Assembly: GCA_017448845.1 (NCBI GenBank)
Contig: JAFSKT010000086.1
Location: 1-39,481, forward strand
Length of the DNA: 39,481 nt
Direction of reading: 5' to 3'
Source of the DNA: Lachnospiraceae bacterium
Lineage (GTDB): Bacteria; Bacillota; Clostridia; Lachnospirales; Lachnospiraceae
Below, piece by piece: positions 6,420 to 38,610 of this stretch. Positions within the stretch are counted from its first letter, which is position 1, and each line of letters starts with the position of its first letter. Under the pieces are notes generated by a model. It was not told the DNA's origin and did no database searches. It was given only the letters and a program-made list of their open reading frames with translations. The position numbers and the translations under genes were made by a program.

Positions 6420-9400
6420 ATGAGTAATTTTTCTTTTCTCGAAAGCCGTTGGACCGATTTATCTAAACTCGGAACACTGGCTGAAAAGTATGTATTTTCA
6501 GACCCCAACTCATCTATATTAAAACAGGGGATGTGTGCCGAACGACTGGTTCAGTACATGCTTGCATATGATGGCATCCCGGAGCCGGATTATGATAACA
6601 CTCATGCGAATCGAATAAAACTTCTGAAAAAAAATGAACTTCTCCCAAAAGAAATAAACAACACTCTTTATATCCTTCGGAAAGACCGTAATGATGCATC
6701 TCATAACGCAATGGACGAACAGAAGAAGGCGTTATCAAATCTTCCCCTTCTATATGACCTCTGTGTATGGTTTATGCAAACCTATGGTGATTATAACTAT
6801 GAGCCTGATGGATTCAAGCCGCCATCAGACATTACTATAGACCTTTCCAGTCTTGAAAAAGAGAATAAAGAACTTGAAGAACAGAACCAAAAACTTCTTT
6901 TAGAACTGGAGACCATAAGGGAAAAAGGAAGTGCAGACAGTTCCCGGAGGTTTAAGGCATATAAAAAAGCTCAGAATATCCACTTAAACGAAGCACAGAC
7001 TCGGGAACTCATTGACGACCAGCTCCGGAAAGTGGGATGGGAAGCTGATACCGATAATATCAGATATTCCAAAGGCACAAGACCGGAAAAAGGCCATAAT
7101 TATGCCATAGCGGAATTCCCCACAGATTCAGAACTTGTAAGCGGTGGGTCTGCGGATTATGCTCTCTTCATAGGAGAAAAACTGGTTGGAATAGTAGAAG
7201 CAAAAAGAAAGCATAAGGATATCCCCTCCGTTCTGGACTACCAGTGTAAGGATTATGCTCGGAATATCAAGTCAGAACATCAAAAATACGTTATAGGAAG
7301 TTTTGGCGAATATAAAGTACCGTTCCTTTTTGCCACAAATGGACGGGAATATTTTGAACAGTATAAGGAAAAATCCGGGATATGGTATCTTGACACCAGA
7401 GATCCATTCAATGTAGGAAAAGCTCTGCGGGGTTGGTTCTCACCTGAAGGTATAGAACAGAGACTTGAAAAGGATATCAAAGAAGCGGAGAAACAGCTTT
7501 TATCAACCAGTTATGAAGTGCTTGAAGACCCGGATGGCTTAAACCTTCGCCCCTATCAGATAGATGCTATTAAAGCAGCGGAGAAGGCTATAGTCGAGGA
7601 TAAAAAGCAGACGGTTCTTCTTGCTATGGCTACAGGTACTGGAAAAACCCGTACTGTCCTTGGGATGATATACAGGTTTCTTTCCTGCGGACTCTTCAAA
7701 AGAGTTCTGTTTCTTGTTGACAGGACTGCTCTAGGAGACCAGGCATCCGACACGTTTAATTCAATAAAACTGGAAGACCTTAAATCCCTTGATAAGATAT
7801 ATGATATCAAGGATTTAGGAGAAAGTGAGATAGAAAAGGATACCAAGCTTGTAATAGCCACTGTCCAGAGCCTTGTAAAAAGAATTGTCTATAATACTTC
7901 AGACGTTATTCCCAGTGCATCAGATTTTGACCTCATAATAGTAGATGAAGCACACCGGGGATATGTCCTTGACAGGGATATGAGCGATGATGAGGTTAAA
8001 TATCGAAATCAGGAAGACTTCCAGAGCAAGTACCGTGCCGTTATTGATTATTTCGATGCAGTAAAGATAGCCCTCACTGCTACCCCTGCTCTTCATACCA
8101 CAGAGATATTCGGGGCTCCTGTATATACCTATGACTACAGGACTGCTGTTGTAGACGGCTTCCTTGTTGACCATGATGCCCCGCATCTTATTACTACAAA
8201 GCTTACTGATGAAGGAATACACCTCAAAGCCGGTACAGTTCAGCCCATATATGACCCGGTAACAGATACCATAATAAACGGTGCAGAACTGCCGGACGAC
8301 CTGGATTTTGATGTAGACGACTTCAATAAGAGAGTGGTTAATAAGCCCACTACTGAAGCTATCATCTCTGAACTTGTGAAATACATTGACCCGAATGAAC
8401 CTGGCAAAACGCTGATATTTGCCGTGGATGATGCCCATGCAGATATGATAGTGAATATCCTTAAAGAGAAGTATACCTCTCAGGGAATTCCTGAGGACGC
8501 AATAAAGAAGATAACAGGCTCTATTGAGAACGGAAACAGCAAAAAGATAAGGGAACACATAAAACGATTCAAGAATGATGAAAATCCCAATATCGTTGTT
8601 ACCGTTGACCTTCTTTCTACAGGAATAGATGTTGAAAGGATAGTCAACATCGTATTCATAAGGCGTATCAAGTCCAGAATCCTTTTTGAGCAGATGCTTG
8701 GAAGGGCCACGCGCCTCTGCCCCGAAATCGGGAAAACCCATTTTGAAATTTATGATGCGGTCAAGCTTTATGAGGCATTATCTCCTGTCTCATCCATGAA
8801 ACCTATTGTGGCTAATCCTGCAGTATCTTTTGATACCCTGATAGACAGCATAGATATTCTTGATACTGATGAACAGAAGAAAAATCAGATAGATATGATA
8901 ATTGCGAAGATGAGGCGCAGTATCAGCAAGATGTCTGATGAAAACCGGGAGCAGTTCACTTCTCTGACTGAGGGAAGGTCACCTGAAGGATTTATTCAGG
9001 ATTTATCCCACTTCTCTGTCGAAAAGGCTTCAGAGACTGTTAAGAAATACCGTGAAGCATTTGATTATGTGAAACGGGAATCATATCTCCGACCACAGAT
9101 TATAAGTGATATTGCGGATAGTGTTAAAAGCCACGAAAGAGGATATGGGAAAGCCACAAAACCGGAGGATTATCTTAAGGAATTTCAAAACTTCATAGAA
9201 GAGAACAGGGATAAGATAGCAGCTCTTACTATTGTGGCAACGCGACCTAAGGATCTTACGAGGCAGTCCTTAAAGGAACTGAAACTTATCCTTGACAGGG
9301 ATGGTTTTAGTGAAACCAAACTTCAGACAGCATGGCGTGAAATGACAAATGAAGATATAGCCGCAGACATTATCAGCTTTATAAGGCAGAAAAGTTCAGG

Positions 9401-9662
9401 AAATGCTCTAATCAGCAAGGATGAAAGAATCCATAAAGCCATGGAAAAACTGAAGGCTGTTCATTCTGAGTTTACAAAAGTTCAGCTTAACTGGCTCATG
9501 CGGATAGAGGAATACCTGAAAAAAGAGACTGTTCTTAACAAGGAATCCTTTGATGCCGCGGCATTTAAGAACAAGGGCGGTTACAATGCGGTTAATAAAG
9601 CTTTCGGAAATAATCTGGATGCAATAATTGACGAAATTAACGAGTATATGTATGCGGCATAA
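6420..9662 (+). CDS. hsdR: Type I restriction endonuclease subunit R (HsdR)
   Basis: This is the motor and nuclease subunit of a type I R-M complex; it translocates and cuts DNA lacking the host methylation. The 1080 residues show an N-terminal DUF4145/HEPN-like domain (1-125) with an RNDASH motif (R90, H95), then a coiled coil (about 143-170). The restriction nuclease core has D246 and E260-A-K262. The SF2 helicase motor has Walker A ATGTGKT (404-410) and DEAH (509-512), plus the QMLGRATR motif VI. The C-terminus is EcoEI-like. GGGGGT precedes the ATG. hsdM follows after 49 bases. The sequence is full length with all motifs intact, so activity is expected. Confidence 0.97.
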   Translation: MSNFSFLESRWTDLSKLGTLAEKYVFSDPNSSILKQGMCAERLVQYMLAYDGIPEPDYDNTHANRIKLLKKNELLPKEINNTLYILRKDRNDASHNAMDEQKKALSNLPLLYDLCVWFMQTYGDYNYEPDGFKPPSDITIDLSSLEKENKELEEQNQKLLLELETIREKGSADSSRRFKAYKKAQNIHLNEAQTRELIDDQLRKVGWEADTDNIRYSKGTRPEKGHNYAIAEFPTDSELVSGGSADYALFIGEKLVGIVEAKRKHKDIPSVLDYQCKDYARNIKSEHQKYVIGSFGEYKVPFLFATNGREYFEQYKEKSGIWYLDTRDPFNVGKALRGWFSPEGIEQRLEKDIKEAEKQLLSTSYEVLEDPDGLNLRPYQIDAIKAAEKAIVEDKKQTVLLAMATGTGKTRTVLGMIYRFLSCGLFKRVLFLVDRTALGDQASDTFNSIKLEDLKSLDKIYDIKDLGESEIEKDTKLVIATVQSLVKRIVYNTSDVIPSASDFDLIIVDEAHRGYVLDRDMSDDEVKYRNQEDFQSKYRAVIDYFDAVKIALTATPALHTTEIFGAPVYTYDYRTAVVDGFLVDHDAPHLITTKLTDEGIHLKAGTVQPIYDPVTDTIINGAELPDDLDFDVDDFNKRVVNKPTTEAIISELVKYIDPNEPGKTLIFAVDDAHADMIVNILKEKYTSQGIPEDAIKKITGSIENGNSKKIREHIKRFKNDENPNIVVTVDLLSTGIDVERIVNIVFIRRIKSRILFEQMLGRATRLCPEIGKTHFEIYDAVKLYEALSPVSSMKPIVANPAVSFDTLIDSIDILDTDEQKKNQIDMIIAKMRRSISKMSDENREQFTSLTEGRSPEGFIQDLSHFSVEKASETVKKYREAFDYVKRESYLRPQIISDIADSVKSHERGYGKATKPEDYLKEFQNFIEENRDKIAALTIVATRPKDLTRQSLKELKLILDRDGFSETKLQTAWREMTNEDIAADIISFIRQKSSGNALISKDERIHKAMEKLKAVHSEFTKVQLNWLMRIEEYLKKETVLNKESFDAAAFKNKGGYNAVNKAFGNNLDAIIDEINEYMYAA

Positions 9663-9711
9663 TATGTATATTTTACGCAGATAAATAGATGACGAGGCAG
9701 GAAGCGGTAAT

Positions 9712-11133
9712 ATGACTAATAACGAAATAGTAGCAAAACTCTGGAACCTCTGTAATGTACTGAGGGATGACGGTATCACATACCATCAGTATGTCACGGA
9801 ATTGACCTATATCCTTTTCTTGAAGATGGCAAAAGAAACAGGGACAGAAGACAATATCCCGGAAGAATACCGCTGGGATGTTCTTAAGAAAAAAGACGGT
9901 CTGGAACTGAAGAAATACTATGGAAATCTTCTTACAGAACTTGGCGGGAAAGGAAAAGGTCGTATAAAGGAAATCTATAACGGTGCCCGCAGTAATATTG
10001 AGGAGCCTGCAAATCTTAAAAAGATTATCACCAATATTGATGCTCTTGACTGGTTTTCCGCAAAAGAAGAAGGACTTGGCAATCTATATGAGGGGCTCCT
10101 TGAAAAAAACGCCGGTGAAAAGAAATCCGGTGCCGGGCAGTATTTTACTCCGCGTGTCCTCATAGATGTTATGACAGAGCTTATCGACCCAAAGCCTGGG
10201 GAACTCTGTAATGACCCAGCCTGCGGAACTTTCGGTTTCATGATTGCCGCAGATGCTCATATAAAAAAGCAGACACAGGAATTGTTTACTTTAAGTGAAG
10301 ATGAACAGCACTTCCAGAAATATAAAGCTTTTACCGGAGGGGAACTGGTGCATGAGACCCACAGGCTTGCCCTTATGAATGCCATGCTCCATGATATCGA
10401 GGGGAAAATAACCCTTGGTGATACCCTCTCAAATCTGGGGAAGTCTATGAAAAACTATGACGTGGTCTTGACCAATCCCCCCTTCGGGACAAAGAAAGGC
10501 GGGGAAAGGGCTACAAGGGATGACTTTACCTTTGCTACAAGCAATAAACAGTTGAATTTCCTTCAGCATATCTACCGCTCACTTAGGAAAGATACCGGGA
10601 CTGCAAGGGCTGCTGTCGTTCTCCCGGACAATGTCCTTTTTGCAGATGGTGATGGTGAGAACATCCGTGTTGACCTTATGAATAAATGCAATCTCCATAC
10701 GGTACTCCGACTTCCTACAGGCATTTTCTATGCACAGGGAGTAAAGACCAATGTCCTCTTCTTTACAAGGGGAAAAACGGATACAGGAAACACAAAGGAA
10801 GTCTGGTTCTATGACCTCCGTACCAACATGCCATCCTTCGGAAAGACGAACCCCCTTACAAAGGAGCATTTCGAAGGCTTCATAAAGGCATATACCGCAG
10901 AGGACAGACATAGCATACAGGATGAACGATGGAATTGTTTTACTGTAGAACAGATAGGGGCTGAGGGTAAGAATCATAGCCTTGACCTTGGGCTTATAAG
11001 AGATGATTCTGTTCTTGATTACAACGACCTTCCTGACCCTCTGGAGAGTGTGGAGGAATGTATCGGGAAACTGGAAGAGGCTGTTGATATCCTGAAGAGT
11101 GTGGAGAAGGAACTGAAGGCTATCAGCCAGTAA
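9712..11133 (+). CDS. hsdM: Type I DNA methyltransferase subunit M (HsdM)
   Basis: This N6-adenine methyltransferase marks self DNA with S-adenosylmethionine and forms the core M2S complex. An N-terminal helical HsdM domain (about 5-125) precedes the Rossmann catalytic domain. That domain has the SAM motif DPACGTFGF (168-176) and the catalytic NPPF (255-258), which together define an adenine methylase. At 473 residues it is of normal size. The start ATG follows a purine-rich AGGCAGGAAG stretch. It lies 49 bases after hsdR and 20 bases before mntA, so it is surely in one operon. Confidence 0.97.
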   Translation: MTNNEIVAKLWNLCNVLRDDGITYHQYVTELTYILFLKMAKETGTEDNIPEEYRWDVLKKKDGLELKKYYGNLLTELGGKGKGRIKEIYNGARSNIEEPANLKKIITNIDALDWFSAKEEGLGNLYEGLLEKNAGEKKSGAGQYFTPRVLIDVMTELIDPKPGELCNDPACGTFGFMIAADAHIKKQTQELFTLSEDEQHFQKYKAFTGGELVHETHRLALMNAMLHDIEGKITLGDTLSNLGKSMKNYDVVLTNPPFGTKKGGERATRDDFTFATSNKQLNFLQHIYRSLRKDTGTARAAVVLPDNVLFADGDGENIRVDLMNKCNLHTVLRLPTGIFYAQGVKTNVLFFTRGKTDTGNTKEVWFYDLRTNMPSFGKTNPLTKEHFEGFIKAYTAEDRHSIQDERWNCFTVEQIGAEGKNHSLDLGLIRDDSVLDYNDLPDPLESVEECIGKLEEAVDILKSVEKELKAISQ

Positions 11134-11153
11134 AATAGAAAAGAGGTGTTGGT

Positions 11154-11450
11154 ATGCAGACGGTAAGTTCGATTAAGGATATAGTTTCACCTATAGCAAA
11201 GGAATATGGGATTAAGAAAGTATTTCTCTTCGGTTCATATGCCAAGGGTACGGCTACTGAAGAAAGCGATGTGGATTTGTTGATTGATGCCGGGAGGAGG
11301 ATGACCTTCATCACACTTTCGGGATTAAGGCAGGATGTATGTGAATCCTTAAAGCTTCCGGTGGATATAGTGACAGTAAACTCGCTGGATGAGGATTTTA
11401 AGGACTCTATAAGGGAAAGTGAGGTTCTGCTATATGAAGAACAGGGATGA
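11154..11450 (+). CDS. mntA: MNT-domain nucleotidyltransferase antitoxin (MntA-like)
   Basis: This minimal nucleotidyltransferase has 98 residues. The motif GSx10DxD is exact: G27-S28 and D39-V-D41 (GSYAKG...SDVDLL). Characterised MntA proteins add AMP to a tyrosine of the HEPN toxin and so silence it; this is family knowledge. Ribosome site AGAGGTG precedes the ATG. The gene ends inside the next one (17-base overlap), which is the standard antitoxin-toxin coupling. Its unusual feature is its place between hsdM and hsdS. It is probably cotranscribed with the restriction genes. Confidence 0.92.
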   Translation: MQTVSSIKDIVSPIAKEYGIKKVFLFGSYAKGTATEESDVDLLIDAGRRMTFITLSGLRQDVCESLKLPVDIVTVNSLDEDFKDSIRESEVLLYEEQG

Positions 11451-11790
11451 AACCGTACTCCTAAAAATATTAAAATATATTTCTCAGGTAGAGGATGCTC
11501 ACAAGGATTACGGGAATAACTTTGAGTCTTTCCAGAGTAGTTCCGTATATAGGAATGCCTGCTGTATGTGCGTCCTTCAAATCGGGGAATTATGCAAGGT
11601 GATTTCTGATGAATTAAGACAATCAGAAAACCAGGTTCCATGGCGTGAATGGTGTGGAATAAGAGATTTATTCGCCCACCAGTATGCTGAAATGGATGTA
11701 GAGATAGCTTGGAACACTCTGGAAGATGACCTGCCGGTTCTGAAAGAAAACGTGGAGCGGATTCTAAGGGAGATTCAGGAAAAAGATTGA
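11434..11790 (+). CDS. hepT: HEPN-domain toxin (HepT-like)
   Basis: This all-helical HEPN protein of 118 residues is the presumed ribonuclease toxin partner of the adjacent MNT antitoxin. The RX4HXY signature is intact: R77-DLFA-H82-Q-Y84. In studied homologues the arginine and histidine form the RNase site, and the tyrosine is the AMPylation target. I chose the ATG at 11434, with GAGG nine bases upstream. A GTG at 11419 would add five residues. It overlaps mntA by 17 bases. It could act as an abortive second line if the R-M system is disturbed, which is inference. Confidence 0.92.
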   Translation: MKNRDETVLLKILKYISQVEDAHKDYGNNFESFQSSSVYRNACCMCVLQIGELCKVISDELRQSENQVPWREWCGIRDLFAHQYAEMDVEIAWNTLEDDLPVLKENVERILREIQEKD

Positions 11791-11870
11791 AAAGGAAACT
11801 GCGCTCTCACCAATATGGACAGAGGCTTGTATCTTTTTGATTAGCGAGTATGCCGAAAGAGAAATAAATC

Positions 11871-13277
11871 ATGGCACGACAGAATAAAAATGAAAACCTG
11901 ACAATTGAGGAAAAACTGGAGAAAGCTCTTGTTCCGGAGGGTGAGCAGCCTTATGAGGTGCCAGGGAACTGGTGTTGGGTGAAAATCGGGGAAATAACAA
12001 ATGTAGTAAGTGGCGGGACACCTTCAACTTCGCATAAGGAGTATTATGAAAATGGCGATATTGCATGGATTTCTCCTGCTGATTTATCAAATTATCATGA
12101 TAAATTCATTTCAAAGGGTGCAAAGAACATCACTAAACTGGGGTTAGAAAAGTCGTCAGCCCGTATTATGCCAGAAAATACAGTGTGTCTTTCTACGAGA
12201 GCTCCTATTGGATACGTAGTTATTGCAATGAACGAACTTTGTACGAATCAGGGATTCAAAAGTTTTCTGCCGTCAAGGGCATATATACCGGATTATTTAT
12301 ACTGGTATTTAAAAGGTATAAAGGAACGTCTTGAAGAAAAAGCGAGTGGGACAACATTTCTCGAGTTATCGGGAACTAAAGCATCACAAATAGAGTTTCC
12401 GATAGCTCCGCTTCCTGAGCAACACCGCATTGTTAAACGCATAGAGAGCCTGTTCTCCCAGCTTGACGAGGCACGGGATAAGGCACAGGAGGCGCTGGAT
12501 AACATACAAGATACCTGGTCTTCTATCTCATATGATGCCTTCTCTGGAAAGCTGACAGCTGAATGGAGAAAAACAAACAATAAGGCAGAAACATGGACAG
12601 AATACAGTTTGCAAGATGTTTGTTCTATGAAGATTACAGATGGAACACATCAAACACCGACCTATTGTAAAAAGGAGGATGGCGGAATACCGTTTATTTC
12701 AGCAAAGGATGTTACATCAAAAAAAATAAGCTGGGATGAAATAAAATATATTGTTCCGGAATTACATAATGAATTATATGCACGTATAGCCCCACAAATA
12801 GATGATATTCTTTTGGCAAAAAACGGAACAACAGGTGTCGCAGCTATTGTAGAGACAGATAAGGTATTTGATATATATGTCACGTTAGCTGTACTCAGAC
12901 CTAATAAAGAGATTATATTGCCACGGTATCTGTTGAATATCGTAAATAGTCCGGTTTGTAAAGACCAATTTAATGAACATCTGACAGGGATAGGTGTGCC
13001 AAATCTACATCTACGTGATATTAAAGCAGTAATGATAAGAGTTCCAGAAATTGATGAACAGAAAGAAGTTGTAAGAATAATAGACAATTTCTGGAATGTT
13101 CAGGAATCTGTCATTGAAGCAACTAAATCTGTCATAGAAAATATTGAATTGACAAAAAAATCCATCCTCTCCAAAGCCTTCCGAGGTGAACTGGGGACAA
13201 ATGACCCGGAGGAAGAGAGTGCGGTGGAACTGATAAAAAGTATTTTAGAGGCAGAGGAATACCCATTCCTTTTTTGA
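11871..13277 (+). CDS. hsdS: Type I specificity subunit S (HsdS)
   Basis: The subunit decides which bipartite DNA sequence the complex recognises. The 468 residues contain two target-recognition domains separated by a long conserved helix. The first begins at VPGNWCWVKIGEI (about 30) and ends with LPEQHRIVKRIESL. The second begins around ETWTEYSLQDV and ends with IDEQKEVVRIID and the closing helix ILSKAFRGEL. The two domains differ strongly, so the target should be asymmetric. The start is 80 bases after hepT. Its 3' end overlaps by 33 bases the convergent DUF3800 frame. No inverted repeats or extra silent hsdS copies were seen, so no phase variation is suggested. Confidence 0.95.
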   Translation: MARQNKNENLTIEEKLEKALVPEGEQPYEVPGNWCWVKIGEITNVVSGGTPSTSHKEYYENGDIAWISPADLSNYHDKFISKGAKNITKLGLEKSSARIMPENTVCLSTRAPIGYVVIAMNELCTNQGFKSFLPSRAYIPDYLYWYLKGIKERLEEKASGTTFLELSGTKASQIEFPIAPLPEQHRIVKRIESLFSQLDEARDKAQEALDNIQDTWSSISYDAFSGKLTAEWRKTNNKAETWTEYSLQDVCSMKITDGTHQTPTYCKKEDGGIPFISAKDVTSKKISWDEIKYIVPELHNELYARIAPQIDDILLAKNGTTGVAAIVETDKVFDIYVTLAVLRPNKEIILPRYLLNIVNSPVCKDQFNEHLTGIGVPNLHLRDIKAVMIRVPEIDEQKEVVRIIDNFWNVQESVIEATKSVIENIELTKKSILSKAFRGELGTNDPEEESAVELIKSILEAEEYPFLF

Positions 13278-30235: not shown

Positions 30236-31378
30236 ATGAGAATAACCTGGATAGTTCCGCATTTTCCTCCCCATATCGGAGGCGGAGAAAAGCTGTATAT
30301 GGACATATGCCTTTTCCTTAAGGAAAGGGGAGAAGAGGTAAGAGTAGTAACCAGCAGCTCAGGCGGCATAAAAGGATACCGTAATGTGAAGGGGATCCTG
30401 GTATGGTATTGTGACTGGCCCCTTTTATTCGGACATCCTGCGGTCAGAATGTCTGATATAATGCCTCATGTCAAATGGTGCGATATAGTGCACACCTCTA
30501 TTTATTCCACTGCATTAAAGGCGAATTTAGCCGCTTTCCTAAATGGGAAGAAGTGTGTGACCACCATCCACGAGGTCATGGACAGAAAGTGGTTCTGGTT
30601 TGAAAAAAATCCTCTGAAGGCTGCCGCCTTTTTTATCTATGAAAGGCTGATAGTGTACAGCTGTCCCTTTGTGCATGTAGTTTCCAGGGCAACTGCCTCC
30701 GACTACAGAGCTGCCGGGGGCAGGTGTAAAAAACCATTTATGATATACAACTATCCGAATCTGCCGCCTGTTTCGGATATTGAAAAGGAGGATATTTCCT
30801 TCAGAGAGTATTTCTCTTTAAAAGAAGGAGAGCGGGGGATACTCTTCTTCGGAAGACCGGCTAAGAATAAAGGGATTTTTGTCCTGTTAAAGGCATTGAG
30901 CCTTTTGTCGGAAAGTGAGATCGCATCTGCAAAAGTGCGGTTATGTTTTATCCTGGCAAGGGATCCTGAACCGGAATACAAAAAGGCGGTTCAGATGATC
31001 CGGGAACTTGATCTGTCCGGATATATAACTGTAAAGCCTCCTCTTCCCAGGCTAAAACTCCTGAAAGTGCTTTCCGGAGCAGACTGCTGTATTATCCCGT
31101 CTGTTACCGAAGGGTTCGGATATGCTGCGGCAGAAGCCTGCGCCCTGAAAAGAAATGTCATCAGCTCTGATGCAGGGTCTTTAAAGGAAGTAGTGGGCGG
31201 CCCATGTCTCTTTTTCAGAAACAGGGATGCGTCTGATCTGGCGGACAAACTATCTGCATATATGAAGCGGGATACAGAGGCTTTCCGCACTGAAAAAGAA
31301 AAACGCTTTAATAAGAACAGGATCACAGAACATTATATGGATATGTACAGATCCCTTATAGAAGAGGAAAAAGAGTGA
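30236..31378 (+). CDS. Glycosyltransferase family 4
   Basis: This GT-B fold enzyme adds a sugar from a nucleotide donor to a growing glycan at the inner membrane face. The 380 residues begin with the family's typical PHFPPHIGGGEK acceptor-side loop. Near the end is PSVTEGFGYAAAEAC, the EX7E motif that binds the donor, and FFGRPAKNKGI in the middle. The ATG follows TATGGAGAATAA. It overlaps the flippase gene by four bases (GTGA) and opens the glycan operon. Confidence 0.92.
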   Translation: MRITWIVPHFPPHIGGGEKLYMDICLFLKERGEEVRVVTSSSGGIKGYRNVKGILVWYCDWPLLFGHPAVRMSDIMPHVKWCDIVHTSIYSTALKANLAAFLNGKKCVTTIHEVMDRKWFWFEKNPLKAAAFFIYERLIVYSCPFVHVVSRATASDYRAAGGRCKKPFMIYNYPNLPPVSDIEKEDISFREYFSLKEGERGILFFGRPAKNKGIFVLLKALSLLSESEIASAKVRLCFILARDPEPEYKKAVQMIRELDLSGYITVKPPLPRLKLLKVLSGADCCIIPSVTEGFGYAAAEACALKRNVISSDAGSLKEVVGGPCLFFRNRDASDLADKLSAYMKRDTEAFRTEKEKRFNKNRITEHYMDMYRSLIEEEKE

Positions 31379-32625
31379 CTGCAAAAGAGGGAAATTTCTT
31401 AAAGAAGTCGGACGTGATCTGGGTCGGTGCTTCAAATATCATGGCCTTAGTCACTGCAGTCATAATAGGACTTGCTCTGCCCCGGTTCACAAGCTACGAG
31501 ACCTATGCCGGTTACAGGGAATATACACTTTTTATCGGATTCTCCGGACTGCTTCACTTTGGCTTTGTTAACGGCGTTGCGCTCCGTTATGGCAGTTTAA
31601 GCTTAAATGAGCTGCCGTCCGAAACTTTCAGGGTATATTCCCGGGTTTTTGCTGTAGCAGAGCTGATCATAGCAGCAATCCTGACCGCAGTATTATTTAT
31701 TGCTCCCGGGGGAAGGATCACACCGCTTTTTTTTGTTGCGGTAAATATGCTTTTTGAAAACCTCAGGGCTTATTTTTCGACGATAACGATCTTCACCGGC
31801 AGGTTCCGGACAGATGCGGTGCTGCAGTTCCTGTACAGAGGGATACAGCTTTTGGGATTTCTTCTGATCTTGTGGCAGGGATCAGGCGGATGGCTAGGGT
31901 TCCTTTTATTTACCACAGTATTAAATGCAGCAATTCTTGCCATATATGCTGTATGTAATTCTGCTCTTATCATTCCTTTTGCCGGGAGTATTACAGATCA
32001 CGGTCCGGATATGATCAAAACGGTCCGACGGGGTATCCCGGTGCTTTTGGGGGAACAGCTTTCCCTTTTGATCCTGGGAGCCGACAGTATATTTGCCCGT
32101 TTATTTTTTGATGCAAAGCAGTTTTCGGTTTATTCCTTTGCGGTTTATATCGTTGTGACTGCATATACCGTAATAAATGCCGCCAATACAGTGATCTTTC
32201 CGTATCTGAAGCGCATAGAAGAAAAGGACATGGCAAAGAGATACAGGGATCTGAAAAATATTTCCCTGATACTTTCCCTTATCATGTCGGTTTTCTTTTT
32301 TATCTGTCCTGCGGCTATAAGGAGGCTGATGCCGGGATATGAGGACAGTATCCCGTTTCTCTGCATTCTTGCAGTGACTCTGTTTTTCAGGACGCTGCAG
32401 GGAATGGCCTGTTCAAATACCATGAAAGCGCTGGATATGGAAAAAGAGTATTTCAGATGCTGCGCTGTCACCTGTGCCGCTGCGGTTCTTTCGGATACGG
32501 CTGTTTATATGATATGGAGAGATCTCAGGCCCATTGCGGTCTGCAGTGTGCTGGTGTTTGCGTTCTGGTATTTCCTTTGTGATCATTTGATAAGAAAACG
32601 GCTGGTAAAGTTTGAAAGTCTTTGA
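31375..32625 (+). CDS. Polysaccharide flippase, Wzx/MATE-like
   Basis: A 416-residue polytopic protein with about 12 hydrophobic segments and the usual start (VIWVGASNIMALVTAVI). It belongs to the oligosaccharide-flippase group that moves lipid-linked glycans across the membrane. A GTG start at 31375 overlaps the GT4 stop. The C-terminus ends in the first arm of a palindrome (32611-32633) that contains the stop codon. Substrate lipid and glycan are not known; context points to the lipid-linked substrate of the STT3 enzyme downstream. Confidence 0.88.
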   Translation: MTAKEGNFLKKSDVIWVGASNIMALVTAVIIGLALPRFTSYETYAGYREYTLFIGFSGLLHFGFVNGVALRYGSLSLNELPSETFRVYSRVFAVAELIIAAILTAVLFIAPGGRITPLFFVAVNMLFENLRAYFSTITIFTGRFRTDAVLQFLYRGIQLLGFLLILWQGSGGWLGFLLFTTVLNAAILAIYAVCNSALIIPFAGSITDHGPDMIKTVRRGIPVLLGEQLSLLILGADSIFARLFFDAKQFSVYSFAVYIVVTAYTVINAANTVIFPYLKRIEEKDMAKRYRDLKNISLILSLIMSVFFFICPAAIRRLMPGYEDSIPFLCILAVTLFFRTLQGMACSNTMKALDMEKEYFRCCAVTCAAAVLSDTAVYMIWRDLRPIAVCSVLVFAFWYFLCDHLIRKRLVKFESL

Positions 32626-32698: not shown

Positions 32699-33385
32699 AT
32701 GAAAGATCTGTTGATAATAATACCTGCGTTTAATGAAGAAAAGAATATCGGCAGCGTTATTTCGGAACTGAAAGAAAGGGCGGGAGATGCTTCTTTGCTG
32801 GTCGTAGATGACGGATCCTCGGACGGTACAGGAGAGATATTAAAAACCATGGGGGTGAAGACCGTCAGGCACCGGGTAAACCTGGGACTCGCCGAAGCTG
32901 TAAGAACAGGGATGAAATATGCCCTTCGACATGATCTTAAGTATGCCATGCAGTTTGACGCGGACGGGCAGCATGATGCGGCTGCGGTTGAAAGGCTTTA
33001 TAAACAGGCTGTAAAAGGTGAGTATAATATAGTCATAGGCTCCAGATACGCAGAGAAAAAAGCGCCCCTTTCATTAAGAACTATAGGCGGTACCATGATC
33101 TCGCTATGCATATGTATGGTGAGCGGAGAAAAGATCAAGGATCCCACCTCCGGTATGCGCTTATATGACAGGCGTGTTATGGAGTGTTTTGCGGCTTCCT
33201 CACATTACTCACCTGAGCCGGATACTCTGTCGTATCTCATAAGCCGAGGAATTAAAGTAACAGAAGTTCAGGTCAGCATGAATGAAAGGATGAGCGGCAG
33301 GAGCTATCTTGATATCACGGAATCCCTCCGTTATATGTTCAGGATGTGCAGTTCCATACTGCTGTTGCAGTGGATAAGGAGATAG
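32699..33385 (+). CDS. Glycosyltransferase family 2, dolichyl/polyprenyl-phosphate-sugar synthase type
   Basis: A 228-residue GT-A enzyme, the size of soluble DPM1-like synthases that load one sugar onto a polyprenyl phosphate. Motifs: IPAFNEEKNIGSVI at the start, VVDDGSSDGTGEI (nucleotide site), the DxD equivalent FDADGQHD, and the DPTSGMRLYDR segment. No membrane helix of its own; such enzymes often act with a small membrane partner, here probably the next gene (DUF2304), only two bases away. Confidence 0.9.
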   Translation: MKDLLIIIPAFNEEKNIGSVISELKERAGDASLLVVDDGSSDGTGEILKTMGVKTVRHRVNLGLAEAVRTGMKYALRHDLKYAMQFDADGQHDAAAVERLYKQAVKGEYNIVIGSRYAEKKAPLSLRTIGGTMISLCICMVSGEKIKDPTSGMRLYDRRVMECFAASSHYSPEPDTLSYLISRGIKVTEVQVSMNERMSGRSYLDITESLRYMFRMCSSILLLQWIRR

Positions 33386-33387
33386 AT

Positions 33388-33738
33388 ATGCCTTTGATAT
33401 TACGGATACTTTTATTGATTTCATCATTATTGAGCTTTATTTTTGTGGTCAGAAGACTGAGGAAATCCGAAGTACAGCTCTATGACACAACTTTCTGGAT
33501 CACTTTGTCGGCGCTTTTTGTGCTCTTAAGTCTTTTTCCCCAGATAGCGATAAAGGTTGCCGAGCTTATTGGGATACAGTCTCCGGTAAACATGGTATTC
33601 CTTATAATTATTTTCTTCCTTTTGGGACACTGTTTCCTCCAGTCTCTCCGTTTTTCCCATCTGGAGAACCGGTTTAATAAACTGGTGGGAGATGAGGCTC
33701 TTAAAGCTGAAGATGAAAAGCAGGAGGAAGATTCTTGA
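33388..33738 (+). CDS. DUF2304 small membrane protein
   Basis: 116 residues with three hydrophobic helices (about 2-23, 38-55, 69-87) and a charged C-terminal tail. The RILLLISSL...VRRLRKSEV...LFWITLS-type pattern fits DUF2304, a family that commonly sits next to GT2 enzymes. It may anchor the GT2 enzyme to the membrane; this is inference from gene pairing. I chose the ATG at 33388, behind AAGGAGAT, rather than a start 14 codons earlier inside the GT2 gene. Its stop overlaps the STT3 start. Confidence 0.85.
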   Translation: MPLILRILLLISSLLSFIFVVRRLRKSEVQLYDTTFWITLSALFVLLSLFPQIAIKVAELIGIQSPVNMVFLIIIFFLLGHCFLQSLRFSHLENRFNKLVGDEALKAEDEKQEEDS

Positions 33739-36020
33739 AAACAAAAGAAAAGACAATAAATCCGCTGATAAGCGCAATAATACTGATGGTGCTGATCATG
33801 TCCACAGCCCTGTTTTTCAGGATAATGGCTTCCAGGACCGTATATACTTCTTTGGGAGAGGATTATATCGATCCGGAAACCTCTGTTCCGTATCTTACCG
33901 AGATGGACTCCTATTATCATCTGAGAATGACAAGAGATATCAGGGATTACTCCCATCCCGGAAACGAGCTTAAGTATGGGGAACCCTGGGACGGTCTGAG
34001 CTATGCTCCATATGGCAGAAGCGCTGCAGGATACAGTCCCCTTATGGCAGATATCGCAGTCTTTTTCTCAAGGCTGCTTTCTTCTTTCGGGGATCTTACT
34101 CTGGAAAAGGTTGTATATTGGCAGGGAGCGTTTTTGTCTGTGCTGGTTGTTATACCTGTTTTTATCATGGCATTCCGTATGCAGGGAATGATCGCAGCCT
34201 TGACGGCGGCGGTACTGGCCTCCTTAAACTACGGGTACTTCCTTCATACCGTTCCGGGCTTTTATGACACCGATACCGTCCTTTCCTGGTCTTCTGCAGT
34301 GTTCTTCTGCCTGGCCTGTCTGTTGATCAGTTCCTTCAGTGAGGAGAAAGAAGGCAATAAAACCATGATAAAAAGGACAGTATATGGGGTATTGTTCTTT
34401 ATAAGCTTCCTGGTCCTGATCCTTTCATGGAATGTCTATACACTGTTCATGGGGATACTGGCCCTGTCTTTGCTGGTGTTTTTCGCACTTTCTGTCAAAG
34501 CGGATAAATCTTCGATCCGTGCAAAACTCATGGGACCCGGAACGGCGCTGGCTTTGATACTTCTCGGAGTGCTGATATTGGACCGGGGCTTTATTTCCAG
34601 TCTTTTCAGCCAGTTCAAAGGTGTATTCATAGGAAACAGTACCGGGCTTTTTCCTGATGCATATGTATCCGTATCTGAAATGAGAAAGCCATCATTGATA
34701 GCAGGAGGCTTTACCGGTCTTTTTCAGATGAAGGTCCTGTCGGAAGGCAATATAGGCATCATAAACGCGGTGGGAGGCGCCGTTCCCTGCATCATGTCCC
34801 TTGTGATGCTTGTGATCCTTATAAAGAAGGTCATAAAGGGAGAACACCGTTTTGAGTATATCCTATTCAGCATATGGTATTTGATCACCGCTGTTTTAGC
34901 CTTCAGAAGCTGGCGGTTCATAATGCTTTTTGCCGTGCCGGTTGCCATCCTCTCAGGAATGCTGGTGGGAAAGATCTGTACGATCATGGTGGACCGGAAG
35001 CTAATGGACTGGCAGGTATTTGCCACGATGTTGATACTGCTTGCCCTTTTCCCTGCCCTCTACGGGGCTTACCGTTCAAAGGGGGATTCTTTACCACAGG
35101 TAAACCGCTATCTCCATGAACCTTTAAGCAACATCCGTTCGCAGACCGGTACGGATGCCATAGTTGCAAGCTGGTGGGACTACGGATACTTCTTTGAGGA
35201 AAAGACAGGCCGAAGGACCTTATTTGACGGCGGTTCGCAGGACGGAAAGCGTGTTTACTGGGTCGGAAAAGCTTTGGCCGCCGTAGATGAAAAACTTTCC
35301 CGGAATATCATAAAAATGCTCTCGGGCTCGGGAGATGATGCCACAGAAGGTATGATAAAAGCATTCGGAGAAAATAAGGATACCCTGATATTTATGACTG
35401 AGCTCCTTTCTTCGGACAGAGATCCCGCTGAGACAAAACTGATAGAAAGAGGGCTTTCCCCTGAAGAAGCTTCCGCCATGGCAGATCTTCTGTTCCCTGA
35501 AGTGAAGGAAGAAGTTCTTTTTATCGTTACACATGACATGATAAACATCGCCCCCTGGTTTGCTGAATTCGGATATTACGGGGAAGACGATGCCCTGTCT
35601 GACGGGGAATACTCATTGATCTTTAATAACATGGAATATAAGCCGCAAAACGGAAAAGCAGCCTGGCGCTTTTCAAGGAATGGGGAGATTATAGACTTTA
35701 CCATAGAGGATAATAACGGCACTTATGAAGCATATACAAAGAAGCCCGAACAGGAAGGGGATAGCATCCCCGTTGACAGGATCATTAAAATTGAAAACGG
35801 CATGTACATGGAGTATGGGGGATCGGAGGTTTCTTCCGGCACTAAAGGCTGGACGGTTATTTTGAATATGGACGCTTCTTCCCCTATGGTAACTGTCGTA
35901 ACTACCCCGCTGTATGAGTCGGTTTTCGGAAGACTTTATTTTCAGGGAGGCAGCGGAATGGAGCATTATGCATTTTCAGATCTCTCCGGGGGAAGTGCTT
36001 TTATCTATGATGTGAGATGA
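33735..36020 (+). CDS. STT3/AglB/PglB-like oligosaccharyltransferase
   Basis: Family enzymes transfer a whole glycan from a polyprenyl carrier to asparagine in N-X-S/T sites outside the cytoplasm. The 761 residues show an N-terminal multi-helix membrane part (to about 445) and a soluble C-terminal domain. Family motifs are all visible: E57-M-D58-SYYHLR (first external loop, metal and catalytic acid), DTD at 178-180, SVSE at 312-315 (the archaeal-style loop glutamate), RSWRF near 391-395, WWDYG at 480-484, and HDMI at 600-603. The start is a TTG, seven bases behind AGGAGG and overlapping the DUF2304 stop. It lies within a glycan-assembly operon. Intact motifs suggest activity; transfer to Asn is inferred. 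Confidence 0.93.
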   Translation: MKTKEKTINPLISAIILMVLIMSTALFFRIMASRTVYTSLGEDYIDPETSVPYLTEMDSYYHLRMTRDIRDYSHPGNELKYGEPWDGLSYAPYGRSAAGYSPLMADIAVFFSRLLSSFGDLTLEKVVYWQGAFLSVLVVIPVFIMAFRMQGMIAALTAAVLASLNYGYFLHTVPGFYDTDTVLSWSSAVFFCLACLLISSFSEEKEGNKTMIKRTVYGVLFFISFLVLILSWNVYTLFMGILALSLLVFFALSVKADKSSIRAKLMGPGTALALILLGVLILDRGFISSLFSQFKGVFIGNSTGLFPDAYVSVSEMRKPSLIAGGFTGLFQMKVLSEGNIGIINAVGGAVPCIMSLVMLVILIKKVIKGEHRFEYILFSIWYLITAVLAFRSWRFIMLFAVPVAILSGMLVGKICTIMVDRKLMDWQVFATMLILLALFPALYGAYRSKGDSLPQVNRYLHEPLSNIRSQTGTDAIVASWWDYGYFFEEKTGRRTLFDGGSQDGKRVYWVGKALAAVDEKLSRNIIKMLSGSGDDATEGMIKAFGENKDTLIFMTELLSSDRDPAETKLIERGLSPEEASAMADLLFPEVKEEVLFIVTHDMINIAPWFAEFGYYGEDDALSDGEYSLIFNNMEYKPQNGKAAWRFSRNGEIIDFTIEDNNGTYEAYTKKPEQEGDSIPVDRIIKIENGMYMEYGGSEVSSGTKGWTVILNMDASSPMVTVVTTPLYESVFGRLYFQGGSGMEHYAFSDLSGGSAFIYDVR

Positions 36021-36034
36021 GGAGAAATGGCAGG

Positions 36035-37078
36035 ATGATGAAAAAAGGTCTGTATGTAATAGACGGTATTTTTCTCGCAAGGAGGCTTACGGGAGTAGAG
36101 CGCTTTGCTTATAACATGGTTAAGGAAATGGACGCTCTGGTGAAACCCGGGCGTTTTATCCTCCTTGCTCCCATGAAGAGTGAAAATGAAATGGAGCTTA
36201 AAAACATTAAGCTCGTTAAGTACGGGCATTTTAAGGGATATTTATGGGAACAGACCGATCTGGCTTATTTCATCTTAAAACACAGGGCAAGGTGCATATC
36301 CTTTTGTAATACCGTCCCGGTCCTTGCTTCAAGGGGCGTAGTCTTTTTGCATGACATCAGTATGAGAGTCAACCCCGGCTTCTTCTCCACTAATTTCAGG
36401 GGATGCCTCAGCATTTTATGCTGGTGCCTTATGTACCGGGCCATTGTGATGTCCGGAGTGAAAATAGCCACCGTCTCGGAATTCTCAAAATCCGAGATGA
36501 TCCGTTATTATAAAATAGATAAAGACCGGATAAGCGTGATCCACAGTGCCTGGCAGCATATGGAGGATATTGAAGCGGATTACGGGATCCTTCAAAGACT
36601 CGGATTGGAGAAGGGAAAATATTACTTTGGGATGGCTACCGCCGCTCCCAATAAGAATACTAAATGGATAATTGAGGCGGCGAGACAGCACAAAGACAGC
36701 ATTTTTGTGCTTGCAGGGCATATGAGTGAAGGAGTATGCCCGGAAAACAGGCCGGAAAACCTGATCCTTGCGGGATATGTAAGCGACGGTGAGGCAAAAG
36801 CCCTTATGGGCAGCTGCAGAGCCTTTATCCTACCGACATTTTATGAGGGATTCGGACTGCCTCCCATGGAAGCGCTTGCAAGCGGCGCGGAGGGCATCAT
36901 CCTTTCAGACATCCCCTGTCTTCGGGAGATATACGGGGATATCGCTTCTTATATCGATCCCCACGACTACGATAACACCTGCCTGGAAGTAAAGGAGCAG
37001 TCTCCCGGTGATATTCAGAGATTTCTTGATCGTTATTCCTGGAAAATTTCCGCAAAAGCGCTTCTACGGTTGCTTTAA
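36035..37078 (+). CDS. Glycosyltransferase family 4 (second)
   Basis: A 347-residue GT-B enzyme. It begins KKGLYVIDGIFLARRLTGVERFAYNM, the GT4 mannosyl/rhamnosyl-transferase-like N-terminus, and carries PTFYEGFGLPPMEALASG with the EX7E donor motif. ATVSEFSKSEM is also typical. I chose the ATG at 36035, with GGAGA nine bases upstream; another ATG at 36017 overlaps the STT3 stop. It is the last gene of the glycan operon. No initiating phosphoglycosyl transferase or Wzy polymerase is in the window, so the first sugar must be added by an enzyme encoded elsewhere. Confidence 0.9.
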   Translation: MMKKGLYVIDGIFLARRLTGVERFAYNMVKEMDALVKPGRFILLAPMKSENEMELKNIKLVKYGHFKGYLWEQTDLAYFILKHRARCISFCNTVPVLASRGVVFLHDISMRVNPGFFSTNFRGCLSILCWCLMYRAIVMSGVKIATVSEFSKSEMIRYYKIDKDRISVIHSAWQHMEDIEADYGILQRLGLEKGKYYFGMATAAPNKNTKWIIEAARQHKDSIFVLAGHMSEGVCPENRPENLILAGYVSDGEAKALMGSCRAFILPTFYEGFGLPPMEALASGAEGIILSDIPCLREIYGDIASYIDPHDYDNTCLEVKEQSPGDIQRFLDRYSWKISAKALLRLL

Positions 37079-37225: not shown

Positions 37226-37915
37226 TGTTATTTCCACGTACTCCTCGATGTCAGTGTTTTTCTTAATGACAAGGAAAACATTGATCTGGAGATGCAGGTT
37301 GTAAGAGAGGCGTTCTGGTGTGACAGATCGCTGTCATATATATGCAGATCCTTTGACAGTCTGAACAGAGGCGCGGCATATGGTGAAACCAAACCTGTAA
37401 AGCAGGTAGCGTTTTGCGATTTCACACTTTTTCCGGATCATCCGGAGTTTTGCGCTACGTTCATGATGCTGAATAAAAAAAGGCCGGAGGTTGTGTATTC
37501 GGAGAAGTTTGTCATTACGAATATAGACCTTACCAGGATCGATCTGGCGACCAAAGAAGACAAGAAGGATAAAATTGATCAATGGGCAGAGTTTTTCAAG
37601 GCGAAGACCTGGGAGGACATGAAGATGCTTGCAGAAAAGAATGAATCCATAGGAAGAGCCGTATCCGGAGTATGGCAGCTCACGGAAGAAGAGAAGATCC
37701 GTCAACGATGCCGTGCAAGAGAGGAATGGATCATTAACGACAACTACAAGACGAAAAAACTAAAAGAGCAGGAAGAAGAGCTTAGGCAGAAAGATGCAGT
37801 ATTAGAGCAGAAGGATGCCGCAATATCCGATCAAAAAGCGATCATTGAACAGCTGCAGGATGAAATTGAGCGCCTTAAGAATATGATGGCAAATAAGAAT
37901 GCAGAAGAGGATTAA
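37226..37915 (+). pseudogene. Rpn-family PD-(D/E)XK nuclease/transposase, 5'-truncated
   Basis: The frame carries the second half of a recombination-promoting nuclease (Rpn/PD-(D/E)XK transposase family). It starts at the strand with NIDLEMQVV, which holds the family's E-x-Q catalytic residues, then YICRSFDSLN and PVKQVAFCDFTLF, and ends in a coiled coil rich in Glu, Gln and Lys. The N-terminal 60 or so residues, with the first catalytic acid, are missing; a stop lies in frame upstream. An internal ATG at 37292 would start after the E-x-Q motif, so the enzyme is probably dead. Confidence 0.8.
37605..37798 (+). repeat. Direct repeat, copy 1 (pair at 38179-38372)
   Basis: About 194 bases, beginning AGACCTGGGAGGACATGAAG, recur 574 bases downstream with only scattered mismatches. 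Both copies encode the same Rpn C-terminal stretch (KTWEDMKMLAEKN...EEEL). It marks a partial duplication or the join of two related nuclease genes. Confidence 0.9.
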
Positions 37916-38423: not shown

Positions 38424-38610
38424 GTACTGCTTAAGGGAATCAGTATGTCAGGATCCGGGTTTTAAAACCGGAAATGTTTTCGGAATGGATTTAAAATAAC
38501 AGAATAGACATCAAAAACGACCGAATGTTCAAAATCGGTTGAATTTTATTGAAGGATACCATATTATCGAAAATGGTACCTGACTTTCGGGGTTGAAGTG
38601 GAAAATATAG

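Follow-up and report, generated by a model that had tools for sequence, protein, structure and literature searches.

The members of the STT3 family of oligosaccharyltransferases, such as PglB of Campylobacter and AglB of archaea, are marked by a WWDYG motif, a DxD motif, an aspartate in the first loop, an S/T-x-x-E motif and an arginine on the carrier side, and PglB as well as AglB have many protein substrates. In Campylobacter the flippase of the pgl locus is the ABC-type PglK. Streptococci glycosylate accessory Sec/serine-rich repeat (SRR) adhesins by an O-linked, cytoplasmic and sequential route, whose machinery is encoded next to a single giant client that bears a special signal peptide. 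Here we describe a locus on a stretch of 39,481 nucleotides (contig JAFSKT010000086.1 of assembly GCA_017448845.1; hereafter the window) from a Lachnospiraceae bacterium, in which the gene at 33735..36020 on the + strand encodes, as judged from its sequence, an intact STT3-family oligosaccharyltransferase of 761 amino acids (aa), with motifs beyond those expected by chance. In all likelihood it would belong to a cassette for en bloc N-glycosylation that chiefly serves one linked surface protein, and we think that this partner protein, packed with sequons, is the main point of the locus. The genome of the window (G000; draft, 2.78 Mb, 84.9% complete, 4.2% contaminated, 230 contigs, one STT3) shares its genus with G030 (MC2017) and G027 (AD3010), both recorded as Lachnospiraceae bacterium and presumably cultured rumen isolates, which bears out the preliminary description of this DNA as coming from a Gram-positive-type, Clostridia-like host.

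That description had also singled out the 761-residue open reading frame (ORF) for the motifs MDSYYHLR, DTD, SVSE, WWDYG and HDMI; its coordinates are exact and all the motifs are present (M57-D58-SYYHLR, D178-T-D180, S312-VSE315, W480-WDYG484 and H600-DMI603). The ORF starts with a TTG codon preceded 7 nt upstream by GGAGG, and this start overlaps the stop of the preceding DUF2304 gene by 4 bp. The search with the STT3-family profile that had been proposed recovered two domains above their Pfam cut-offs, namely PF02516 (5.8e-33, 115.4 bits against 24.5) and STT3-PglB_core (9.8e-12, 46 bits against 23). The closest PDB sequence match is the PglB 5ogl (1.3e-7), followed by other PglB and STT3 subunits. 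In an alignment of the protein with 41 relatives (42 sequences) D58, D178, T179, E315, R394, W480-D482, G484, Y485 and G499 are invariant and D180 is conserved in at least 90%, and thus WWDYG, DxD, the first-loop D, S/T-x-x-E and R are all present, as in the GT66 family of glycosyltransferases. A crude hydropathy analysis shows 11 strong hydrophobic segments up to residue 446, followed by a soluble part containing the WWDYG motif. The scores with two narrower models lie far below their cut-offs, at 61.1 bits (cut-off 1300) for the PglB equivalog NF050801 and 76.3 bits (cut-off 450) for the archaeosortase-associated STT3 model TIGR04154.

Many sister loci (L numbers below) possess, near the STT3 gene, a large ORF with a signal peptide. 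These partner proteins have bodies of more than one type, such as c7, which combines Chlam_PMP and Big_2 parts, and c9, represented at L023 by a protein without a Pfam domain. The two types are alike only within approximately the first 150 residues, most strongly over the signal peptide, which has the common form KRLTRxGLxxYxxxYCMAFTVCAE. The full-length partners carry 27-54 sequons (N-X-S/T), far above the counts in shuffled sequences: 54 against 18.8 (sd 3.8) in the 1267-aa partner of MC2017, 45 and 41 against 14.2 each in the two partners of L024, 44 against 17.8 in L034, 39 against 23.3 in L032, 30 against 12.3 in L022, 30 against 11.2 in L025, 27 against 9.4 in L023 and 27 against 11.3 in L026. 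The partner encoded in the window's own genome (G000:C113:343-3420, ATG at 343) has 42 against 12.6 expected. The reversed pattern S/T-X-N remains near expectation in MC2017 (19), L024 (9 and 12), L022 (9), L025 (14), L023 (8) and L026 (8). When ten of the 14 listed partners are pooled (L033, of 219 aa, L049, L057 and L058 being the unpooled ones), S/T at position +2 from N is found 382 times against 150 expected (2.55x), with the eleven other spacings from -6 to +6 having ratios of 0.64-1.13. NXT (257) outnumbers NXS (121), though T (1009) and S (927) are nearly equal in content, and proline is avoided, with NP[S/T] accounting for 4 of the 382 against 13.9 expected (p 0.0017). These statistics of the predicted sites match the textbook STT3 acceptor rule, N-X(not P)-T/S. 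The Campylobacter rule, with an acidic residue at -2, is not favored (29 of 378 sequons against 48 expected). The STT3 proteins of the window clade themselves carry only 0-4 sequons in the loci counted. Some archaeal STT3/AglB proteins are themselves sequon-rich, with z scores of 4.0-4.8 (L048:9872-12592, L053:9986-12745, L055:9998-12691 and L094:7717-9801).

A profile of the common signal peptide, run against 61 genomes, matched G030, G000, G004 (twice) and G008, apart from one weak match (0.008) in another family, and both matches in G004 adjoin STT3, i.e. two of the three STT3 genes of that genome. Within the genus, the partner signal is present in 4 of 5 genomes with STT3 vs 0 of 32 without it (Fisher p 7.6e-5, kinship ignored). 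In RGIG5105 (G008) the start of the partner follows STT3, a glycosyltransferase gene (GT4b, see below) and a PDDEXK gene on one contig. Among the loci listed for the window clade (L020-L037), 8 of the 18 have an ORF with a sequon z of at least 3.5, namely L020, L022, L023, L024 (twice), L025, L026, L033 (219 aa) and L034. As a control, four genomes from the genus (G000 and G030 with STT3, G032 and G014 without) were sampled in 60 stretches; of their 813 ORFs of at least 100 aa, none of at least 250 aa lies above z 3.5 and one lies above 3. Values of at least 3.5 are also reached by proteins not counted as partners: archaeal STT3s (L048, L050, L053, L055 and L094), a C. coli membrane protein (L089), a methanogen protein (L053), a 221-aa frame in L058 and an ORF in L047. 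The last (L047:643-2631, 663 aa) lies near the STT3 of a Clostridia metagenome-assembled genome (MAG) and has 16 sequons vs 6.6 expected.

Other branches of STT3, from Eubacterium, Lachnospiraceae and Oscillospiraceae MAGs, likewise lie near large secreted sequon-rich proteins of other architecture, encoded at L057:1975-5079 (34 vs 15.6 sequons), L058:2846-5731 (30 vs 9.9; Ig and fn3 domains) and L049:5139-9809 (27 vs 11.9; List_Bact repeat). Because the STT3s at L057 and L058, from a different branch, neighbor surface proteins of Ig/fn3 type that belong to another family and have 34 and 30 sequons, the pairing of STT3 with a partner may have arisen more than once.

The STT3 gene is the fifth in an operon of six genes on the + strand, with 4-bp overlaps at three junctions. 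The first, GT4a (30236..31378), encodes a group 1 glycosyltransferase (PF00534 3.5e-19, PF13439 1.2e-15) which probably functions in the assembly of the lipid-linked glycan; it overlaps the next gene by 4 bp and its counterpart at the same place in MC2017 is 72% identical. The second (31375..32625) encodes a 416-aa membrane protein with 11 hydrophobic segments that itself has no Pfam match. In its wider family 5 of 17 aligned members match PF01943 (Polysacc_synt; best 1.4e-13), and through these relatives it is probably a Wzx-type flippase of lipid-linked oligosaccharides. The third gene (32699..33385) codes for a GT2 glycosyltransferase resembling polyprenyl-phosphate sugar synthases (PF00535 2.4e-24), for which the nearest NCBIfam models are PpgS (polyprenyl-phospho-N-acetylgalactosaminyl synthase, 2.5e-28) and the archaeal AglJ (1.9e-21), both under their curated cut-offs; the glycan may start on polyprenyl monophosphate. 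It is followed by the gene for a 116-aa DUF2304 membrane protein with three hydrophobic segments (33388..33738; PF10066 1.9e-24 in its longer form), for which the ATG at 33388, with AAGGAG before it, is a likelier start than the GTG at 33346 of that longer form. STT3 is followed, with a 4-bp overlap, by GT4b (36017..37078), another group 1 glycosyltransferase (PF00534 3.1e-11), whose counterparts after STT3 are 61% identical in MC2017 and 86% in RGIG5105. A clustering of neighborhoods that covered 17 sister loci, with L027 left out, recovered a flippase cluster in 11 of them, namely c3 in 8 (PF01943 being shown on two representatives) and the 416-aa family in 3. The neighbor of STT3 at L030:2896-5226 joins a flippase and a LicD domain in one protein of about 780 aa (PF01943 and PF04991), and a cluster member of the same length is found at L035:12346-14697; the fusion suggests phospho-substituted glycans.

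These associations are consistent with a pathway in which the GT2, together with the DUF2304 protein, and the GT4 enzymes would assemble a short glycan at the inner membrane face, with polyprenyl mono- or diphosphate as its carrier, the Wzx-like protein would flip the lipid-linked glycan, and STT3 would transfer it to the asparagine of N-X(not P)-T/S in exported proteins. The main client would be one giant surface protein, composed of beta-helix and Ig-like parts or of a different body, with the common signal peptide, which in the window's genome would be G000:C113:343-3420. We infer this succession of glycan assembly, flipping and transfer, with the identity of STT3, the structure of the operon and the sequon excess being read from the sequence itself. 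The preliminary reading of en bloc protein N-glycosylation in Clostridia thus gains support, as the sequon statistics of the linked secreted proteins point to an N-X-S/T acceptor. As a broader proposal, which we favor by a modest degree, an archaeal-like STT3, the genes that assemble its glycan and a surface protein extremely rich in sequons (27-54 sites), which bears a signal peptide of its own, would have co-evolved in rumen and gut Clostridia as an N-linked counterpart of the streptococcal glycosylation of a single adhesin client.

Several observations weigh against a dedicated pairing. Ten of the 18 loci of the window clade are without an ORF at z of at least 3.5 (L021, L027-L032 and L035-L037), because of which our confidence in the co-evolved pairing was lowered slightly. 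Of these, L021, L027, L028 and L030 are contigs below 8 kb, L036 breaks off within STT3, and in L032 a weaker ORF bears the same signal; L029, L031, L035 and L037 are not short. Around the AD3010-type STT3s (G004:C1, G027, G770 and G789) and those of G650 and G795, no ORF with z of at least 3 is present in 34-40 kb each. STT3s without a sequon-rich neighbor could either serve other clients or have their partner elsewhere. The partner of the window's own genome lies on another contig (C113). We take this separation to be an assembly or insertion break, because a copy of the DNA upstream of the partner gene (38443..38578, + strand, 99.3% identical over 136 bp to G000:C113:140-275) runs into insertion-sequence-like DNA, after which the contig ends. 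The STT3 of RGIG5105 is split over two contigs, and its second piece ends early (the frame stops at 1253 of L021, with similarity continuing to 1685). S/T-X-N is raised too in L034 (28 vs 17.8) and slightly in L032 (29 vs 23.3), and the pooled counts are not independent, the partners being homologous. To the same side belongs the assignment of the 416-aa flippase through relatives, as a direct profile comparison (hhalign) of its family with the PF01943 flippases of neighboring loci was not significant in two runs.

The partner could alternatively be merely the densest client of a general N-glycosylation system, as in Campylobacter, in which many secreted proteins are modified. We regard this as a serious possibility, though less probable than a cassette serving chiefly one client: the many protein substrates of PglB and AglB speak for it, and several of the partnerless STT3s are still full-length, so that other clients would be needed. 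The observed/expected ratio of sequons in secreted proteins, as selected by a crude hydropathy rule, is 1.11 in G000 and 1.03 in G030, like the 1.04 (G032) and 1.27 (G014) of genomes lacking STT3; this argument against a general system is weak, because such systems need leave no sequon mark and the localization rule is crude. That STT3 serves cell-wall or exopolysaccharide assembly, handing the glycan to a non-protein acceptor, is very unlikely. Wzx, GT4 and, in sister loci, LicD proteins are also present in polysaccharide clusters, but the +2 spacing of the sequons with avoidance of proline is hard to explain without an asparagine acceptor, and none of the operon genes has a polymerase-type Pfam match.

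We find it hardly credible that beta-helix repeats of the Chlam_PMP type, or composition, account for the abundance of sequons and that the linkage to STT3 is a matter of chance. The partner repeats do contain N-C-T-F and N-N-T/S patterns, and methanogen adhesin-like proteins with such repeats match the partner. Yet the excess remains outside the repeats: after residue 400, beyond the beta-helix, the c7 partners have 30 sequons vs 7.4 (own genome), 42 vs 13.9 (MC2017), and 36 vs 11.0, 33 vs 10.9, 22 vs 7.4, 37 vs 14.1 and 25 vs 14.9 in the others. It is also found in the c9 partner of L023, which has no Pfam domain, and in the Ig/fn3 partner of another STT3 branch (L058). A C-terminal domain common to c7 and other proteins of the genus has 36 vs 13.9 sequons in six partners and 14 vs 15.8 in nine other rows (sums from which L176, overlapping L159 in the same protein, L242, with E 0.011, and rows below 90 residues were dropped), and in two other large secreted proteins of STT3-bearing genomes the counts are close to those expected (21 vs 18.9 and 9 vs 11.1). 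The partners of the window's genome and MC2017, at 40% identity, have 19 sequon columns in common, of 42 and 54 respectively.

Within the genus STT3 has a patchy distribution, being found in 5 of 37 genomes, the window's own included. MC2017 holds the same six operon genes in the same order, and the STT3 gene is therefore no binning artefact. G004 possesses three STT3 genes of different subclades (L002, L006 and L007). In an even sample of the class PF02516 was recovered in 13 of 391 genomes, strongly in the window's own and weakly in the other 12 (best 2.5e-8, five at or just over the cut-off), and with the core domain 5 of 392 genomes of the order gave matches, all of one family. A scan of 84,980 species yielded at least 443 STT3 relatives; among those listed, from which 78 loci were kept, are Lachnospiraceae, Christensenella, Eubacterium, Oscillospiraceae, Tenericutes, Saccharibacteria, Methanobrevibacter, other archaea and Campylobacterota, and many of the bacterial records bear rumen or gut sample names. 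A Saccharibacteria MAG of 0.7 Mb has an STT3 at L056:9953-11950, the single match in that genome.

In phylogenetic trees the window clade is fully supported (20 rows in the first tree, 13 in a careful tree of 52 chosen rows). It joins three further Lachnospiraceae rows (97/99), apart from PglB (100/99) and Methanobacteriota (99/98), and constraining it to group with PglB costs 18.2 log units and is rejected (approximately unbiased test, p-AU 0.015). A second clade of gut-bacterial STT3s (Lachnoclostridium, Tenericutes, Saccharibacteria and others) lies elsewhere in the careful tree, beside PglB (87/80). The trees were built without duplicate, partial or frameshifted rows (L001, L002, L003, L004, L005, L021, L028, L036, L042, L067, L098 and L103), ORFs below 520 aa and then 30 more mostly redundant rows, and the archaeal sampling is, as far as the records name their source, without Halobacteriota and Methanosarcinales. 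In this sampling the window clade forms a separate gut-bacterial branch that is not nested among the sampled archaea. The earlier impression of a pattern closer to the archaeal one holds for the motifs, DSYY-LRMT and S-V/I-x-E being common to Methanobrevibacter and absent from the Campylobacter rows, and agrees with the rejected PglB grouping; it does not extend to a position within the sampled archaea. Bacterial STT3s have been placed within euryarchaea, with at least two transfers (Lombard 2016, PMC4973528). An archaeal origin of the partner was considered, and the evidence is not diagnostic: proteins from 31 of 40 Methanobacteriota genomes resemble its beta-helix part, at about residues 180-340 (best 4.8e-14), but G043, a bacterium of the order that lacks STT3, also matches the MC2017 partner (3.3e-9).

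Elsewhere the window contains a DDE transposase at the contig start (132-1457), type I restriction-modification genes at 6420-13277 (HsdR, HsdM, a small nucleotidyltransferase-like ORF and HsdS), a PD-(D/E)XK transposase-like gene after the operon (37292-37915) and a transposase-like ORF at the contig end (38625-39287). Composition gives no sign of recent transfer, with a GC content of 0.459 in the operon and 0.457 in window 3900-30000. As for a phage or plasmid origin, no phage record matched and one plasmid record did so weakly (Deltaproteobacteria Smac51, 3e-5).

Published tests of PglB-like genes have covered Aquificae (PMC4894442) as well as Ca. latesbacterium, F. sinusarabici and M. schaedleri (PMC11164674), so that further outlying cases are already described, and GT66 genes have been counted in rumen metagenomes (PMC12335128), in passages that carry no host assignment. 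No report of STT3 in Lachnospiraceae was found in the accessible passages of the open PubMed Central (PMC) literature. The STT3 family is already known, but its occurrence in this host lineage and the proposed dedicated pairing have no precedent in the literature covered. Besides Lachnospiraceae and Christensenellaceae, other gut bacteria have STT3s as well, with a likely client and acceptor rule readable from the genome, and the strains MC2017 and AD3010 make the prediction of N-glycosylation testable. These loci might be a source of single-subunit oligosaccharyltransferases with natural high-density acceptors, and might provide a surface code in the rumen, a habitat shared with methanogens bearing a related enzyme.

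With the Campylobacter PglB system the locus shares the STT3 family, the WWDYG and DTD motifs, the positions of the catalytic D, E and R residues and a cluster with glycosyltransferases and a probable flippase. It differs in that the window STT3 is only 18-19% identical to four PglB-type rows, with the joint clade rejected as above, in having DSYY-LRMT and SVSE where PglB has DGYAFAEGA and TIQE, in predicted client sites of the window clade that show no acid preference at -2, in one proposed chief client, and in a probable Wzx-like flippase in place of the ABC flippase PglK. The AglB of Methanobrevibacter and other Methanobacteriota resembles it in the DSYYNLRMT, S-V/I-G-E and SWWDFGY motifs, at 24-27% identity, and beta-helix adhesin-like proteins of this group match a portion of the partner. 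For M. ruminantium both an oligosaccharyl transferase and numerous adhesin-like proteins have been described (PMC2812497). Unlike AglB, which has DM-x-x-K after the core, the window STT3 has DM-x-x-I, its clade is not nested among the sampled archaea, and its gene belongs to a bacterial operon that also includes a Wzx-like one. The locus is reminiscent of accessory Sec/SRR glycosylation in that Gram-positive glycosylation genes accompany a single giant client marked by a special signal peptide, but where the streptococcal modification is O-linked, cytoplasmic and sequential, the one predicted here would be N-linked and en bloc.

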